Shown here piece by piece: positions 13,888-21,314 of a DNA stretch of 25,535 bases. A program made the translations under genes and the position numbers. The notes beneath the pieces were generated by a model that was given only the letters and a program-made list of their open reading frames with translations, was not told the DNA's origin and ran no database searches. Numbering within the stretch: the stretch's first letter is position 1; every line of letters begins with the position of its first letter. The DNA lies in assembly GCA_024696725.1 (NCBI GenBank), contig JAILGO010000052.1:1-25535 (forward strand). The letters run 5' to 3'. Source of the stretch: Eubacterium sp. (lineage in GTDB: Bacteria > Bacillota > Clostridia > Oscillospirales > Acutalibacteraceae).

Positions 13888-14443
13888 TTTTGACAACACG
13901 ATATACAAGGGCGAAAGCACTCTTGATTTGTTCTTCTTTTATATCGTAAAAAAGCCGTGGCTCGTTAAATTTCTTCCTACGGTTTTAAAGGCGTTTGCGC
14001 GTTATAAAAAGGGCGGCGTTACCATACCCGAAATCATTGAGCGCTACGTTCCGCTCGTTGAAAAGGATATATTCAGAGTGGTCGATTTTGAAAACGACGC
14101 CGTAGAGTTCTGGGACAAGCATATTAAAAAAATCAAGCCTCTTTATGACGAGCTGAGAAGCGACGACGATTTGATAATTACCGCATCGCCCGATTTCACT
14201 ATAGACGAGGTGTGTAAAAGACTCGGTATTAAAAGAGCTCTGACATCGCGGGTGAATAAGGAAAGCGGAAAAATCGAGTTCGTAAATATCCGCGAGAATA
14301 AAATAAAAGCGTTCAGAGAGGAATACGGCGCCGCGGAAATTGAGAATTTCTATACCGATTCCCCCGTTAACGACGCTCCGCTCATTGAGCTTGCAAAGCA
14401 CGCGTATCAGGTTAAGGGAAATAAAATAATACGCATAAAGTAG
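13874..14443 (+). CDS. HAD-superfamily phosphatase (HAD-IB, SerB-like)
   Basis: A 189-residue cytoplasmic phosphatase with the HAD motifs in order: I, FDFDNT with nucleophile D5 and D7; II, IITASP; III, the Lys in ENKIKAF; IV, YTDSPVND. The helical cap between motifs I and II is typical of subfamily IB, which includes phosphoserine phosphatase and lysophospholipid or sugar-phosphate phosphatases. The start overlaps the MATE gene by 14 nt, with GAGGAGAGAG as Shine-Dalgarno, so the two are co-translated. The TAG stop lies inside the terminator stem. The substrate cannot be deduced. Confidence 0.88.
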   Translation: MNAFDFDNTIYKGESTLDLFFFYIVKKPWLVKFLPTVLKAFARYKKGGVTIPEIIERYVPLVEKDIFRVVDFENDAVEFWDKHIKKIKPLYDELRSDDDLIITASPDFTIDEVCKRLGIKRALTSRVNKESGKIEFVNIRENKIKAFREEYGAAEIENFYTDSPVNDAPLIELAKHAYQVKGNKIIRIK

Positions 14444-14470
14444 GCAATTCATATTGCCTATTTTATTTTT
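14441..14470 (+). terminator. Terminator after the HAD gene, overlapping the next promoter
   Basis: TAGGCAAT (14441-14448) / ATTGCCTA (14453-14460) with a TCAT loop, then TTTTATTTTTT. The left arm begins with the HAD stop codon, and the right arm contains the -35 box of rlmB. Confidence 0.85.
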
Positions 14471-14482
14471 TAATGCTATAAT
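14454..14482 (+). promoter_or_regulatory. Extended -10 promoter of rlmB
   Basis: TTGCCT (14454-14459), a 17-bp spacer and TATAAT (14477-14482), with an upstream TG that makes an extended -10 (TGCTATAAT). The -35 lies in the terminator hairpin of the preceding gene. Confidence 0.65.
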
Positions 14483-14514: not shown

Positions 14515-15270
14515 GTGAAAAACGAAGATATAAAAACAAACGACAACCTCGTTATCGGGCGTAACGCGGTAATAGAGCTCCTTAAAAGCGAGCGCGAAAT
14601 CGAAAACGTTATGGTTGCAAAGGGCGAGCGCGAGGGCTCAATAAGCAGAATTCTCGCTCTGTGCCGCGATAAAGGGATAACCGTTAAAACCGTCGATAAA
14701 AGAAAGCTTGACGCGCTGTGCGCCGGCGCTAACCATCAGGGCGTTGCGGCAAACACCTCGGCTCATGAATACTCAACCGTAGAGGAAATTCTTGCTTTCG
14801 CAGAGGAAAAAGGCGAACCGCCGTTTCTTATTATCTGCGACGAAATCGAGGACAGCCATAATCTCGGCGCGATAATAAGGACCGCCGAAGCGTGCGGCGT
14901 TCACGGAATAATTATTCCTAAAAGACGCGGCGTAGGGCTTAACTTCGTCGTATCTAAAACCTCGTGCGGAGCGCTTGAATATATGAAGGTCGCGAGAGTT
15001 ACAAATCTCGCTCAGACGATAGACGAATTAAAAAAGAAAAATATATGGATTTATGCGGCTGATATGGACGGTCAGCGCTGGGATAAAACCGACTATTCGG
15101 GCGGCGCCGCGCTTGTAATCGGCAGCGAGGGAAAGGGCGTCGGAAGACTCGTTAAGGAAAAATGCGACGTTACCGTAAGCCTGCCTATGCTCGGCAGGGT
15201 TAACTCCCTTAACGCCTCGGTAGCCGCCGGAATAATAATGTACGAAATAGCAAGACAGAGACTGAGCTGA
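14515..15270 (+). CDS. rlmB: 23S rRNA 2'-O-ribose methyltransferase, RlmB/SpoU family
   Basis: A 251-residue SPOUT methyltransferase. It starts at GTG 14515 with a good Shine-Dalgarno (AGGAGAAG). The N-terminal substrate-binding domain (IGRNAVIELLKS; ANHQGVAA) is followed by the knotted SAM-binding domain with its three motifs: DSHNLGAIIRTAEACG, LVIGSEGKGVGRLV, and SLPMLGRVNSLNASVAAGI. By family this is the enzyme that methylates G2251 of 23S rRNA; close paralogues modify tRNA, so the exact site is an inference. The next gene begins 25 bp downstream and is probably co-transcribed. Confidence 0.93.
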   Translation: MKNEDIKTNDNLVIGRNAVIELLKSEREIENVMVAKGEREGSISRILALCRDKGITVKTVDKRKLDALCAGANHQGVAANTSAHEYSTVEEILAFAEEKGEPPFLIICDEIEDSHNLGAIIRTAEACGVHGIIIPKRRGVGLNFVVSKTSCGALEYMKVARVTNLAQTIDELKKKNIWIYAADMDGQRWDKTDYSGGAALVIGSEGKGVGRLVKEKCDVTVSLPMLGRVNSLNASVAAGIIMYEIARQRLS

Positions 15271-15295: not shown

Positions 15296-17770
15296 ATGAG
15301 TGAGAATAACAAGCTGTCAATAGACGAAATCATCCGAAGGGCTGAGGAAATCAAGGCTGAGGCACAGCGTCATATCGACTCCGCGGAAAAGAGCCTTTCC
15401 GACAAGGAAAAAGCAAAATCCGAGCAGAAGGAAATCGTAATCGACGAGGCTGAGCACGAAAAAAGGGTTGCCGACGCGGTAAACTTTTTCGAGCCCGAGG
15501 AGGACGTAAAGGAGTACACTCCCGCAAAGAAAGAGGAGGTACGCGCCTTTATCCCCAGGAAGAAAAAAGAATATAAAAACGAAAACGACGACGATATTAA
15601 AATCGTCCCCGTGCCTTTTGAAAACGCTGACGGCGACGCGCCTGCCGTTTCGGCTGCTGACGGAAAGACAAAGCCCGTAAGCCTTGTCGAAGAGGAGGCT
15701 GCGCCTGCGGCTGACGACGGAAAAACAAAGGTCGTCGAGGAAAAAACCGCCGTATTCGTAACAAGCGTTACCGACGACGGCGGAAACGAGGACGGGCTTG
15801 AGCAAATACCGACTATCGTTTCAAAGGACGCGCTCGTCAGCGCTTTCAACGCAGAAGCCGAAAACGATTTCGAGGAGGAATCGGGCGTTCAGATAACCTT
15901 TGAGGGATTCGACGAGGAAACCGACGAGGTTGAAACCGTAAACGAAGAGGACGTTGAACGCGAGCTCGAGGAAAAGCGAAGAGAAACGATAAAGAACTTC
16001 CGTATTTTCGACCCGGAAAAAACGGACGAGTCGCTCGGCAGCGATTCCGATATCAAGACGGATTTTGTCGACCCCGACGAAAGCGAAAGCTTTATAAAAA
16101 CGCTGATTGCTGATAAAAAGAAAACGCGTATAAGAGTTCTTCTTACGGGTATAATCGGAGGTATTCTTCTCATTCTGACCGAGCTCGGCGCCCAGTCCGC
16201 GCTTCCGACAGCGTTCTCGTCGCCTAAGCTGTATTATTTCGCTATCGTTCTCTATGCGGCGGTTATGATTATTAACTATAACGTGTTCTTCCGCGGACTC
16301 AATCTGAAAAAGCCACGGAATTTTGACCTGCCCGTAAGCGTCGGCGCGATTATTATACTTGTTCACACCCTGGCTCTTGCTGTAAGCGGCAGCTTCAGAA
16401 TAGACAACGGCGTGCTTCTCGCGGCGGCAGGCGTTTACGCAATGTGTATGAGTCAGCTCGGCAAGCTGAAAATGATGTCGAGAATTGTCGACAATTTCAG
16501 CTTTATCACATCGCAGGGCGATAAGTACACGCTTGAAAATATAACCAACGCCGTCGACGCGGAGATTATCAGCCGCGGTATGCTCGACGAGGAGCCGAGG
16601 CTTAAAATGAGCGTAAAAACCGATTTTCCGACTCATTTCCTTGAGATTTCCTGTAAGCGGGAGCCCGCCGACAGATTTTCCAACAGAATTTTTATTGCGG
16701 ATATTATCCTTTGCGCCGCTCTTTTCGTCGCCATAGAAATTATCACCCGCGAATACACTACCGCGCTCAACGCGGCGGTCTGCGCGCTCGCGATATCGCT
16801 TCCCTGCTCGGCGCTTACGCTTACCAACTCCCAGCTCTGCGATATTTCCGCGCAGCTTAAGCATTACGGCTCGAGGGTATGCGGCTTCGAGGGAGCCGTT
16901 ATGGCAAGCGACGCCAACGCGATAGTTATGGAGGCGGCTGACCTTTTCGGTAAGGAAAACTGCGGACTTCACGGAATAAAAACCTTTAACGACGAAAAGG
17001 TTGACGACGCTATTATTAATACTGCCGCTGTAATTATTCAGACCAAGAGCCCGCTTCGCTACGTTTTCGACGACGTAATTATCGGTCAGCAGTCTATTCT
17101 CCCGCCCGTTACCGACGTAACCTATGAGGAGCGCCTTGGTACCTCGGCGTGGATATATAATAAAAAAGTTCTCGTCGGAACGCGGGAGCTTCTCCGCGCC
17201 CACGACGTAAAGCCGCCCGAGGAAAGCTTTGAAATGCGCTTTACAAGACGCGGACGCAAAGCGCTCTATCTCGCGGTTGACGGAAAGCTTATCGCTATGT
17301 TCATAGTGAGCTACTCCGCCGATAAGCTCCTTCGGCGCGAGCTGAGAAAGCTTGAAAAAAGCGATATGTGCATTATCGTGAAAAGCGCCGACCCGTATAT
17401 AACCGAGGAAAGCCTTTCCGAGCTTTTCGACCTTCCCGCAGGCTTTATAAGGGTAATGAATTATTCGTCCGCCCGCGCTTACGATAAGTATTCGGGTATG
17501 GAGGTTAAAGACTCTCCCGCCTACGTTGTTCACAGCGGAACGGCGCTCGGACTTCTCGGCGCAATGCGCGGAGCGGAAATAATAGTCGGCTCACGCGGAC
17601 TTATAAGCTTTCTGTGTACCTTCGGAAGCATTTTCGGTCTTACGGCTATCGCCGTTCTTTCCGTACTCGGCGCGTTTACTCAGATTAGCGCGCTCGGAAT
17701 CCTTATATTCCAGGCAATCTGGACCGCCTTTGTATATATTGTAATTAAGCTTAAGGGACTCGGTCTCTGA
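15296..17770 (+). CDS. Degenerate P1B-type ATPase-like membrane protein with acidic N-terminal tail
   Basis: An 824-residue protein. Residues 1-275 are highly charged, Glu/Asp/Lys-rich and probably disordered or coiled. Eight hydrophobic segments follow in the 4+2+2 order of heavy-metal P-type ATPases (from about 280, 311, 346, 370; then IFIADIILCAALF and ALAISLPCSAL; then two near the C-terminus). SLPCSAL matches the CPCALGL metal-site helix. After it, where DKTGT should stand, the protein has E546-A-A-D-L. The nucleotide-domain strand YNKKVLVGTRELL is kept, but TGDN is replaced by K696-S-A-D-P, and no TGES actuator loop is seen. It therefore cannot follow the usual phosphoenzyme cycle. It is probably a sensor, scaffold or regulator, function unknown. 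It lies 25 bp after rlmB. Confidence 0.8.
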   Translation: MSENNKLSIDEIIRRAEEIKAEAQRHIDSAEKSLSDKEKAKSEQKEIVIDEAEHEKRVADAVNFFEPEEDVKEYTPAKKEEVRAFIPRKKKEYKNENDDDIKIVPVPFENADGDAPAVSAADGKTKPVSLVEEEAAPAADDGKTKVVEEKTAVFVTSVTDDGGNEDGLEQIPTIVSKDALVSAFNAEAENDFEEESGVQITFEGFDEETDEVETVNEEDVERELEEKRRETIKNFRIFDPEKTDESLGSDSDIKTDFVDPDESESFIKTLIADKKKTRIRVLLTGIIGGILLILTELGAQSALPTAFSSPKLYYFAIVLYAAVMIINYNVFFRGLNLKKPRNFDLPVSVGAIIILVHTLALAVSGSFRIDNGVLLAAAGVYAMCMSQLGKLKMMSRIVDNFSFITSQGDKYTLENITNAVDAEIISRGMLDEEPRLKMSVKTDFPTHFLEISCKREPADRFSNRIFIADIILCAALFVAIEIITREYTTALNAAVCALAISLPCSALTLTNSQLCDISAQLKHYGSRVCGFEGAVMASDANAIVMEAADLFGKENCGLHGIKTFNDEKVDDAIINTAAVIIQTKSPLRYVFDDVIIGQQSILPPVTDVTYEERLGTSAWIYNKKVLVGTRELLRAHDVKPPEESFEMRFTRRGRKALYLAVDGKLIAMFIVSYSADKLLRRELRKLEKSDMCIIVKSADPYITEESLSELFDLPAGFIRVMNYSSARAYDKYSGMEVKDSPAYVVHSGTALGLLGAMRGAEIIVGSRGLISFLCTFGSIFGLTAIAVLSVLGAFTQISALGILIFQAIWTAFVYIVIKLKGLGL

Positions 17771-17775
17771 CGTTA

Positions 17776-17805
17776 AACCCCCGTACCGTCGGGGGTTGTT
17801 TTTTT
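17776..17805 (+). terminator. Terminator after the P-type ATPase-like gene
   Basis: AACCCCCG (17776-17783) / CGGGGGTT (17790-17797) with a 6-nt loop, followed by GTTTTTTTA. Confidence 0.92.
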
Positions 17806-18406: not shown

Positions 18407-18430
18407 AATTTAAGAAAGGACTTGAAAATT

Positions 18431-19588
18431 ATGGTAGTAGGTATTCCGAGAGAAATTATGCACGGTGAGGGACGAGTTTCCGCAATTCCCGAAACGGTCG
18501 CAAAGCTTAAGGCTGACGGCTTTGACGTTCTTGTTGAAAAGAACGCAGGCGCAGAGGCGTTCTTCGCAGACGGCGAATACGCTGCGGCGGGCGCTGAAAT
18601 CGTTGACGACGTAGCGGCGCTTTATGAGAGAAGCGACATCATACTCAAGGTTAAGGAGCCTCTTTTCAACGACGAAAAGGGCGTTCACGAAATTGAAATG
18701 ATGCACAGCGGTCAATATCTTATCACCTTTATTCACCCCGCTTCCCCCGTTAATCACGAGATGGTTAAAAAGATGGCGGCTAAGGGCGTTATCAGCTTAA
18801 CGCTTGACGGCGTTCCGCGTATTTCAAGAGCACAGAATCTTGACGCGCTTACCTCGATGAGCACCTGCGCGGGCTATAAGGGAATTCTTATGGCAGCTAA
18901 CGACCTTGCTAAGTTCATTCCTCAGATATTCTGTGCCGTAGGCGTTATTAAGCCCTGTAACGCGCTTGTAATCGGTACGGGCGTTGCAGGTCTCCAGGCT
19001 ATCGCAACGGCTAAAAGACTCGGCGCGGTTACTTACGCGGCTGATATCCGTCCCGCAGCGGCAGAGCAGGCTATGAGCCTCGGCGCAAAGATTGTTGATA
19101 CAGGCGTTTCCTCCGACGTAGCAGTCGGTCAGGGCGGCTATGCGAACGCGCTCAGCGAAGAGTGGATTCTTAAAGAGAGAGAAGCTCTTAAGGAAACGGT
19201 TAAGGATATGGATATTATCTTCTGCTCCGCTCTCGTTCCCTCAAAGCTCGCTCCGGTTATCATTACCGAAGAGATGGTTAAGTCAATGAAGCCCGGCTCC
19301 GTTATCGTCGATATCTCTATCGACCAGGGCGGTAACTGCGAATGCACGGTTCCCGGCGAAACGGCAGTTAAGCACGGCGTAACCATCGAGGGCATTAAGA
19401 ATATCCCCGGTATGCTTCCCACAAGCTCAACCTGGATGTTTGCAAACAATATCTACAACCTTGTTAAATATCTTACAAAGGACGGAAAGCTTGTTCTTGA
19501 TATGAACGACGAGATTGTTCAGGGCATCCTTACTACAATCGACGGCAAGCTTGTTCATAAGGGAGCTCTTGAGGCTATGAGCAAATAA
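18431..19588 (+). CDS. pntAA: NAD(P) transhydrogenase subunit alpha 1, NAD-binding domain I
   Basis: A 385-residue soluble domain I that binds NAD(H) and passes hydride to domain III. It has the AlaDH/PNT N-terminal part (GIPREIMHGEGRVSAIP), the RQD loop RISRAQNLDALTS with Arg, Gln and Asp all kept, and the Rossmann motif VIGTGVAGLQA followed by an Asp at the end of strand 2 (ADIRP). Alone it could be called alanine dehydrogenase, but the two transhydrogenase membrane subunits right after it decide the call. I start at ATG 18431, 10 nt after AAAGGA; the in-frame TTG at 18422 touches that site and is less likely. The alpha subunit is split into two genes, as in Rhodospirillum. Confidence 0.9.
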   Translation: MVVGIPREIMHGEGRVSAIPETVAKLKADGFDVLVEKNAGAEAFFADGEYAAAGAEIVDDVAALYERSDIILKVKEPLFNDEKGVHEIEMMHSGQYLITFIHPASPVNHEMVKKMAAKGVISLTLDGVPRISRAQNLDALTSMSTCAGYKGILMAANDLAKFIPQIFCAVGVIKPCNALVIGTGVAGLQAIATAKRLGAVTYAADIRPAAAEQAMSLGAKIVDTGVSSDVAVGQGGYANALSEEWILKEREALKETVKDMDIIFCSALVPSKLAPVIITEEMVKSMKPGSVIVDISIDQGGNCECTVPGETAVKHGVTIEGIKNIPGMLPTSSTWMFANNIYNLVKYLTKDGKLVLDMNDEIVQGILTTIDGKLVHKGALEAMSK

Positions 19589-19599
19589 GGAGAAAAATA

Positions 19600-19902
19600 A
19601 TGCCACACATTGTTTTAATTATAGTATTTCTTGTTGCTACGGTAGTCGGCTACTTTATTATCAATAACGTACCGTCTCTTCTTCATACTCCGCTTATGTC
19701 GGGTATGAACGCCCTCTCGGGCATTACCGTTCTCGGTGCGCTTACCGTTACGGCGGTCGCGCTTAAGGACAAGAGCGCGGTACTCAGCACAATCCTCGGC
19801 ATTATCGCGATAATCTTCGCGGTTATCAATGTAGCAGGCGGCTTCGGCATCACCGCGAGAATGCTTAAGATGTTCAAAAAGAAAGAGGGGGATGACGAAT
19901 GA
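19600..19902 (+). CDS. pntAB: NAD(P) transhydrogenase subunit alpha 2, membrane part
   Basis: A 100-residue membrane subunit with about three hydrophobic helices, the usual size for PntAB. The family signature appears as LHTPLMSGMNALSGI, close to the usual HTPLMSxTNAISGI. It provides part of the proton channel in domain II. AAGGAG lies before the ATG at 19600, 11 bp after pntAA, and the stop overlaps the pntB start (ATGA). Confidence 0.93.
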   Translation: MPHIVLIIVFLVATVVGYFIINNVPSLLHTPLMSGMNALSGITVLGALTVTAVALKDKSAVLSTILGIIAIIFAVINVAGGFGITARMLKMFKKKEGDDE

Positions 19903-21314
19903 TGACAGGCTTAATCCCCAACACCGTATTCTATATTATCAGCGGCGTTCTCGTTCTCGGCGTGCTTATCGGTCTTTCTCTTATGAGCAAGCCGAAAACC
20001 GCACGCGCAGGTAATGCCTTAAGCGCGGCTTCCGCGGTAATCGCAATCGCGGTTACTATGTATAACTACGAAATCCTAACCGCTCCGTTTATCTGGGGCG
20101 CAATAGCGGTAGGTATAGTTTTCAGTCTTATAATTATCTTTAAGGTTAAAATGATTCAGATGCCTCAGCTCGTTGCCCTTTTAAACGGCTTCGGCGGACT
20201 TTCAAGCGCGCTTGTCGCGGTGCTTTCACACCGTCAGGCTGAGGATAAGTTCTCGTCCTACGCTGCGCTTATTGCGCTCGTCATCGGCTTTGTAACCTTT
20301 ACCGGAAGCCTTGTCGCTGCGGGAAAGCTTGCGAAACTTCTTCCCCAGAAGCCCGTGGTCGTTAAGGGACATACCGCTATTATCGTTATAACCCTTATTC
20401 TTACGGTTCTCGCCGTTATCGTTGACGCTGATTTATGGGTAGTCGCTTTACTCGCGGCTGAATTCGGAATTATGTTCTCTATCCGCGTCGGCGGCGCAGA
20501 TATGCCGATTACGATTTCGCTTCTCAACTCGCTCAGCGGCGTTGCGGGCGGTATCGCGGGTATTGCCGTGGGCGACGTTATGCTCGTTGCTATCGGCGGC
20601 ATCGTAGGCGCTTCGGGACTTCTCCTTACCCAGATTATGTGTAAGGCTATGAACAGAAAGCTTATAAACATTCTTCTCGGAAGCACTTCGGTAAAAGCCG
20701 TTAAGGAAACAGCTCCCGAGGCAGATGCCGAAGAGGCCGCCACAGAGGCGGAAACCGAAGAGGAGCCGGAAGCTGAGGCCGAAGCGCAGGAGACCGAAGA
20801 GGAAAAGTCCGAGCTTACTCCTTCCGAAATTCTCGGTAACGTAAGCAAGGTAATAATCATTCCCGGCTACGGTATGGCTCTCGCTCAGGCACAGAGTAAG
20901 GTAAAAATGCTCGCTGATAAGCTTGAGGAAAAGGGCGCCGACGTTAAGTTCGCAATTCATCCCGTTGCGGGAAGAATGCCCGGCCACATGAACGTCCTTC
21001 TCTGCGAGGTCGACGTTCCCTACGATAAGCTTTACGAAATGGACGTTATAAATCCCGAGTTCGCCGACTGCGACGCCGTAATCGTTGTAGGCGCTAACGA
21101 CGTTATTAACCCCGCCGCTAATACGGCTGAGGGAACGCCGATTTACGGAATGCCCGTTCTCGACGCCGCGGCGGCAAAGAACGTAATTATCTGTAACTTC
21201 GACGAAAATCCGGGTTACGCGGGCGTACCGAATCCGCTTTATAAGATGGATAATACGCTCCTGCTTCTCGGCGACGCAAAGGAAACCGTTCAGACCTTAA
21301 TCGACAGCTTTTAA
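19899..21314 (+). CDS. pntB: NAD(P) transhydrogenase subunit beta, with altered nucleotide site
   Basis: A 471-residue proton-translocating transhydrogenase beta subunit. Residues 1-265 hold about eight or nine membrane helices of domain II. Residues 270-305 are an Ala/Glu-rich, strongly acidic linker. Domain III follows from about 317 with GYGMALAQAQ, HPVAGRMPGHMNVLL, VVGANDVINPAAN and GYAGVPNPLY. Domain III normally binds NADP(H), its 2'-phosphate being held by Lys-Arg-Ser in the strand before GYAG. Here that stretch reads N433-F-D435-E-N-P-GYAG, with no gap against the family pattern, so the phosphate ligands are missing and an acid is present. Proton-coupled hydride transfer is likely, but NADP specificity is doubtful. 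It is the last gene of the operon. Confidence 0.92.
   Translation: MMTGLIPNTVFYIISGVLVLGVLIGLSLMSKPKTARAGNALSAASAVIAIAVTMYNYEILTAPFIWGAIAVGIVFSLIIIFKVKMIQMPQLVALLNGFGGLSSALVAVLSHRQAEDKFSSYAALIALVIGFVTFTGSLVAAGKLAKLLPQKPVVVKGHTAIIVITLILTVLAVIVDADLWVVALLAAEFGIMFSIRVGGADMPITISLLNSLSGVAGGIAGIAVGDVMLVAIGGIVGASGLLLTQIMCKAMNRKLINILLGSTSVKAVKETAPEADAEEAATEAETEEEPEAEAEAQETEEEKSELTPSEILGNVSKVIIIPGYGMALAQAQSKVKMLADKLEEKGADVKFAIHPVAGRMPGHMNVLLCEVDVPYDKLYEMDVINPEFADCDAVIVVGANDVINPAANTAEGTPIYGMPVLDAAAAKNVIICNFDENPGYAGVPNPLYKMDNTLLLLGDAKETVQTLIDSF

Follow-up and report, generated by a model that had tools for sequence, protein, structure and literature searches.

P-type ATPases are recognised by DKTGT, and the Post-Albers cycle as known needs the phospho-Asp motif, a catalytic Lys, a pair of Mg-binding Asp residues, TGE and the metal cysteines; the residue roles of P1B motifs used here follow general knowledge of these enzymes. 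Since recognition depends on DKTGT, a lineage without it would be missed by motif-based surveys. One such motif-based inventory of P-type ATPases is described in PMC10763278. The closest analogue in kind of the protein described here is TMEM94 (ERMA), a eukaryotic P-type-like membrane protein that is reported to lack TGES and to show no phosphorylation-dephosphorylation cycle in its structures (PMC12134183); the likeness lies in the described P-type architecture without TGES. TMEM94 differs in being eukaryotic and in having ten transmembrane helices and a candidate phospho-Asp, D417, proposed as the phosphorylation site (PMC12134183), and its status as a pump is disputed, others calling it a Mg ATPase (PMC13322241). 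Dead ATP7B mutants (7xuk and 7xun, C983S/C985S/D1027A) are laboratory-made, whereas the family described here is a natural lineage. Our searches of the open-licence PMC literature turned up neither a bacterial pseudo-P1B-ATPase nor such a gene beside rlmB, which does not prove absence from print.

The gene lies in a stretch of Eubacterium sp. DNA of 25,535 nucleotides (the window, meaning the whole stretch that was analysed). The closest relatives of its product are the copper P1B-1 pumps (LpCopA, 3rfu/4bbj; ATP7B; HMA4; PRK10671 and TIGR01525), with which the family shares a colinear core, the eight-helix topology and the N-domain fold, together with the second Gly of GxG, the VG(N/T) glycine and the Asp of TGD. 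Unlike these pumps, the family is without DKTGT, CPC, TGES, GDGxND and SEHP, has an actuator domain about 65 residues shorter and a P domain about 32 shorter, and in the window protein is preceded by an acidic N-terminal region without a Pfam domain. Because the catalytic marks of membership are absent or altered, we do not file the window protein as a P1B pump. The protein divides into this acidic region (residues 1-264) and a P-type-like core (residues 265-824), and the locus is laid out as follows.

14435..14466, + strand: terminator-like hairpin and T tail, upstream of rlmB (consensus scan)
14454..14482, + strand: promoter-like site 5' of rlmB, TTGCCT-17-TATAAT, a TG preceding its second hexamer (10 of 12 consensus matches)
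14515..15270, + strand: rlmB, SpoU-type 23S rRNA 2'-O-methyltransferase, the conserved partner on the upstream side (ORF, Pfam on a homologue, adjacency)
15296..17770, + strand: pseudo-P1B-ATPase gene (ORF of 824 residues, homology to P1B pumps)
15296..16087, + strand: N-terminal acidic region, residues 1-264 (by composition, 78 D/E and 36 K/R)
16091..16507, + strand: predicted helices MA, MB, M1 and M2, residues 266-299, 311-334, 344-363 and 376-404 (AlphaFold2 model)
16508..16663, + strand: actuator domain remnant, residues 405-456, with about 65 residues and TGES gone (model, alignment)
16664..16861, + strand: predicted helices M3 and M4, residues 457-484 and 487-522 (AlphaFold2 model)
16799..16807, + strand: L502-P-C504 at the metal-binding CPC site (alignment)
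16931..16945, + strand: E546-A-A-D-L550 at the phosphorylation motif DKTGT (alignment)
16955..17317, + strand: N domain, residues 554-674, fold kept (structure comparison with 2voy_J)
17384..17395, + strand: S697-A-D699-P700 at the TGDN motif, Asp kept (alignment)
17504..17518, + strand: junction of the deleted MVGDGxND loop, 10 residues after 737 and 22 after 741, exact gap positions being alignment-dependent (alignment)
17543..17758, + strand: predicted helices M5 and M6, residues 750-790 and 799-821, including W809 (AlphaFold2 model)
17776..17797, + strand: terminator-like hairpin then GTTTTTTT, directly 3' of the pseudo-ATPase gene (consensus scan)

A Pfam scan matched SpoU_methylase and SpoU_sub_bind on the rlmB homologue of locus L126. 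The hairpin and promoter-like site 5' of rlmB, together with the hairpin 3' of the pseudo-ATPase gene, suggest that the two genes may form a two-gene transcript, in a consensus scan of the region that found 13 terminator-like sites against 6.8 expected and 8 promoter-like sites against 4.1 expected. The window protein starts SIDEII, and a similar start is found in many, not all, members of alignment A2; SIDEII- or S[VI]DDIL-like starts recur in many distant members of the family, in which the rest of the N-terminal region is strongly divergent. This start (window residues 1-20, 15296-15355) is possibly a short binding motif. Further downstream in the window (18422-21314), ORFs of 388, 100 and 471 residues that follow an Lrp-like regulator resemble, labelled by eye, the PntAA, PntAB and PntB transhydrogenase subunits.

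Homology to P1B pumps and predicted fold

Residues 265-824 are colinear with P1B ATPases. An hhalign comparison of a profile of 35 relatives with 18 canonical P1B pumps aligned 565 columns end to end (E 3.8e-58), the NCBIfam model of the copper-exporting ATPase CopA matched the window protein (E 5.3e-7), and LpCopA (3rfu) was found by phmmer (E 3.7e-4) as the only PDB sequence relative with E below 0.001. Taken together, these matches establish homology to P1B pumps, and the E-values, together with relatives across the order, exclude chance resemblance. Curated cut-offs were missed by far (28.2 against 1316 bits for PRK10671; 16.9 against 346 bits for TIGR01525), and no Pfam family matched the window protein at E 0.01. 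A DUF3742 match at E 0.83 was treated as noise. Among 31 family members, Pfam E1-E2_ATPase matched only two, with a best E of 0.0028.

In the AlphaFold2 model the helices fit the eight-helix P1B topology of 4+2+2, and eight helices are predicted in both structure models. The predicted fold is P-type: the models and structure comparison recover MA, MB and M1-M6 with the N and P domains between M4 and M5, copper P1B pumps are the best structural matches, and the N domain superimposes on 2voy_J with an rmsd of 2.3 Å over 115 residues. An earlier sequence-only reading of this DNA had proposed that the C-terminal 550 or so residues follow a heavy-metal P-type ATPase with 4+2+2 helices, had picked out KKVLVGTRELL as an N-domain strand (residues 623-633), and had suggested structure prediction as a check; the observation is confirmed. 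That reading had noted neither the spread across the order nor the link with rlmB, and neither the shortening of the actuator domain nor the loss of the GDGxND loop.

Loss and retention of P1B motifs

Because many loci come from the same species, site statistics were restricted to 127 family sequences distinct in their last 200 residues, comprising 76 from the window's group (above 585 bits, roughly the genus) and 51 others. A family member was taken to be an ORF scoring above 200 bits to the A1 profile, plus three weak matches adjacent to rlmB, leaving out three partial genes, split or cut, in L031, L051 and L244; motifs were read in fetched loci, other matches in the order being assigned to the family by score alone. 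The split gene in L031 (G058:C38:4428-6539) carries one in-frame TGA, through assembly error or real disruption.

In the window protein DKTGT reads EAADL, as the sequence-only reading had noted. That reading had named homologues with an intact DKTGT as evidence for a simply decayed pump; none of the 127 relatives matched even two of the five residues, and neither the second-position Lys nor the fourth-position Gly occurred in any. The Glu of EAADL (residue 546) is conserved within the window's group, in 73 of 76, but not beyond it, where Glu occurs in 1 of 51 alongside D (15), T (9), S (7), R (5), A (5), K (3), N (2) and single others. Since Glu is so rare outside the group, the proposal that it mimics a phosphorylated Asp fails as a general rule and could at most describe a feature of the window's group; residual chemistry at the Asp aligned in 15 of the 51 seems unlikely.

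The M4 metal site (CPC, CPH or SPC) reads LPC, within the SLPCSAL that the sequence-only reading had set against CPCALGL; both cysteines are present in only 1 of 127, which argues against the suggested metal or redox sensing through this site, and P503 of the same helix is kept in 115. In the nucleotide-binding region SEHP reads TKSP, and its His is found in 0 of 127; the second Gly of GxG (G615, 125/127) and the VG(N/T) glycine (G628, 127/127) are kept. TGDN, described earlier as a lost hinge, reads SADP, but because the window protein and 123 of 127 relatives keep D699, the Asp of TGD, the hinge is altered, not lost. Also retained are Y673 (119/127), W809 (116/127) and F551 (115/127), the last in a new D/E-L-F loop that replaces DKTGT.

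The actuator domain is incomplete, being short by 12+3+18+27+5 residues (about 65) in the alignment. TGES had been reported as not seen, and it is indeed missing from the window protein, but among the 76 members of the window's group 25 show IIS[RK]xhh[TS]GE at the aligned spot, a count based on a text pattern; the [TS]GE stretch is a possible relic of TGES. The MVGDGxND segment, with its Mg-binding GDGxND loop, is deleted (10+22 residues), and the loop deletion recurs in the family profile. Cys 556 (core column C292) is conserved within the window's group. In the order alignment A1 no Cys is near-invariant, such columns being only P, G, G, Y, D and W, and these form no metal-ligand pattern. 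The phosphorylation, metal, dephosphorylation and Mg-binding motifs have all been lost, and with these catalytic elements missing the Post-Albers cycle cannot run as known.

Order-wide distribution and linkage to rlmB

We found a match in 58 of 60 genomes comprising the window's own and its relatives, including 36 of 37 in the same genus (the window's own among them). Across 297 genomes of the order, which we take to be Oscillospirales in GTDB, at at least 90% completeness, a 35-row profile matched 290 with E below 1e-45, and 291 carry the gene once G609, where it adjoins rlmB, is added; the weak matches in G609, G485 and G590 (122-164 bits) each lie directly after rlmB. Carriers include Eubacterium coprostanoligenes ATCC 51222, Anaeromassilibacillus senegalensis and Clostridium sp. 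CAG:217 and CAG:678. The order is common in guts, and many family records are rumen and gut samples. Beyond the order, no match listed scored above 130 bits among 278 genomes of the class or above 126 bits among 295 of the phylum, two samples that share some genomes, and nearly all matches listed there span only model positions of about 200-485; the best 16 class matches outside the order, those that were fetched, keep DKTGT, TGES, CPC and GDGxND. In the class search, 15 order members scored 321-724 bits, except G344 (E 5.6e-20). When 66 family and 21 canonical rows were placed in one tree, each set fell on its own side of a single branch (SH-aLRT 100), a join flagged for long branches. The simplest reading is one origin of the family, the pump probably having been lost once, at or before the base of the order with E. 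coprostanoligenes and Anaeromassilibacillus, and the gene retained ever since behind rlmB.

Open frames are long across the order, and dN/dS was 0.023-0.109 in 16 of the 25 closest pairs (those giving a value, all in the window's group), although dS approaches or exceeds 1 in many pairs; these values indicate purifying selection on the gene within the window's group. The window's genome encodes two further P1B ATPases above the family cut-off, so it has other genes for a pump function. The idea of a pump decayed only locally was rejected on the order-wide presence, the dN/dS values and the motif loss shared by 127 relatives.

Directly upstream of the gene, on the same strand, rlmB was found in 150 of 176 loci, a count not thinned for loci of the same species; the remaining 26 comprise 23 with less than 600 nt upstream, two from one genome in which the genes are unlinked (G037) and the split ORF of L031. 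The gap between the genes has a median of 14.5 nt and does not exceed 60 nt in 102 of the 110 distinct cases, the start being set at whichever of the first six start codons lies nearest, a choice biased towards short gaps. Twenty-one families other than the window's, each represented by one locus, also have rlmB next to the gene, and the rlmB loci of 11 genomes from other orders had no pseudo-ATPase neighbour in the stretch fetched. In G480:C45:4363-5091, an rlmB match contains one in-frame TAA, through assembly error or real disruption.

In the 297 genomes, both genes are present in 290, neither in five, the gene only in one (G414, in which rlmB is not detectable) and rlmB only in one (G350, whose contig ends about 420 nt after rlmB); presence and absence were read by eye from per-genome tables, and the identity of the two 297-genome samples was judged from handle lists. 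G037 keeps both genes, unlinked. The five genomes with neither (G344, G375, G395, G428 and G525) are of high completeness. G375 and G428 form one genus (g231) and agree on the absence of both genes, which looks like a real joint loss, and in the family that holds g231 the genes lie side by side in 7 of the 8 examined genomes having both; G344, G395 and G525 are lone genomes, in which one operon missing from the assembly would look no different. Joint absence is consistent with a functional link, but also with a single deletion or an assembly gap.

Among scanned representatives, the downstream clusters in the window's group encode rubrerythrin (49 loci; L144:5812-6372), a CorA-like protein (27; L151:2395-3348) and Tex (17; L140:7502-9649). 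An EF-G- or ribosome-protection-like GTPase gene, again a translation gene by the one representative scanned, lies about 100 nt downstream on the same strand in L066 (3-1457, - strand) and 10 further loci, 9 of the 11 being outside the genus.

Candidate roles of the protein

Very probably, the gene encodes a retained non-pumping pseudoenzyme, a non-catalytic descendant of a copper-type P1B ATPase. The sequence-only reading had likewise proposed a domesticated, non-pumping P-type ATPase, and the predicted P-type fold and the absence of DKTGT from all 127 relatives bear this out. Such a protein would be unable to form a phosphoenzyme or to run the Post-Albers cycle. Its membrane bundle would act as an anchor and its cytosolic N/P head (G615, G628, D699, Y673 and the remodelled D-L-F loop) as a binding surface or ligand pocket, with the conserved N/P cleft and the remodelled loop as the place where a partner or small ligand binds. 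The role would be that of a scaffold or regulator, not a transporter, and would most likely lie in RlmB's process, 23S rRNA methylation and 50S maturation, which is the first place to look because rlmB is the only constant neighbour. A scaffold coupled to RlmB is a tentative proposal, the link to RlmB being a genomic one; more doubtful is its fuller form, in which a copper pump was converted across a whole order into a fixed, non-catalytic platform in the membrane that works with RlmB and ties 23S rRNA modification or late 50S assembly to that membrane.

About as likely as the RlmB-linked scaffold is a retained pseudo-P1B-ATPase whose nearness to rlmB reflects only a stable operon, its function lying elsewhere, for example in envelope or ion homeostasis. 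The varied downstream genes, with rubrerythrin, CorA-like and Tex in the window's group and the EF-G-like GTPase in other families, point this way, as do G037, with both genes unlinked, and G414, with the gene and no rlmB; the recurrence of rlmB beside the gene in 21 other families and the nearly joint absence of the two genes speak against it. Improbable, though compatible with the eight helices of both models and with P503, is ATP-independent passage of an ion or lipid through the bundle, with the vestigial head as its gate, given the loss of the metal-site cysteines and the lack of a metal-ligand pattern in A1. A metal or redox sensor using the remaining cysteines, to which Cys 556 lends some colour within the window's group, is less probable still, no Cys being near-invariant across the order. 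We consider it very unlikely that phosphorylation has moved to another residue of an enzyme that still cycles: many members have an Asp at or next to the site, and the N-domain fold and TGD Asp are kept, but the Lys and Gly of DKTGT and the His of SEHP are missing in 127 of 127, the window protein has no TGE and the family profile lacks the GDGxND loop. Plain decay of the gene in this genome, as a pseudogene or dying pump, would explain the missing catalytic motifs but is barely credible beside long open frames across the order, dN/dS of 0.02-0.11 and presence in 291 of 297 genomes.

A lineage without DKTGT, hardly visible to Pfam, is thus near-universal in one bacterial order and, within the window's group, under purifying selection. 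If true, the reading as a membrane platform with RlmB would make the family a pseudoenzyme of the P-type ATPase superfamily that nearly all of a bacterial order carries. The family is a natural case for testing which tasks the P-type fold can perform without ATP, and gives a concrete lead to a possible connection between rRNA methylation and the membrane.
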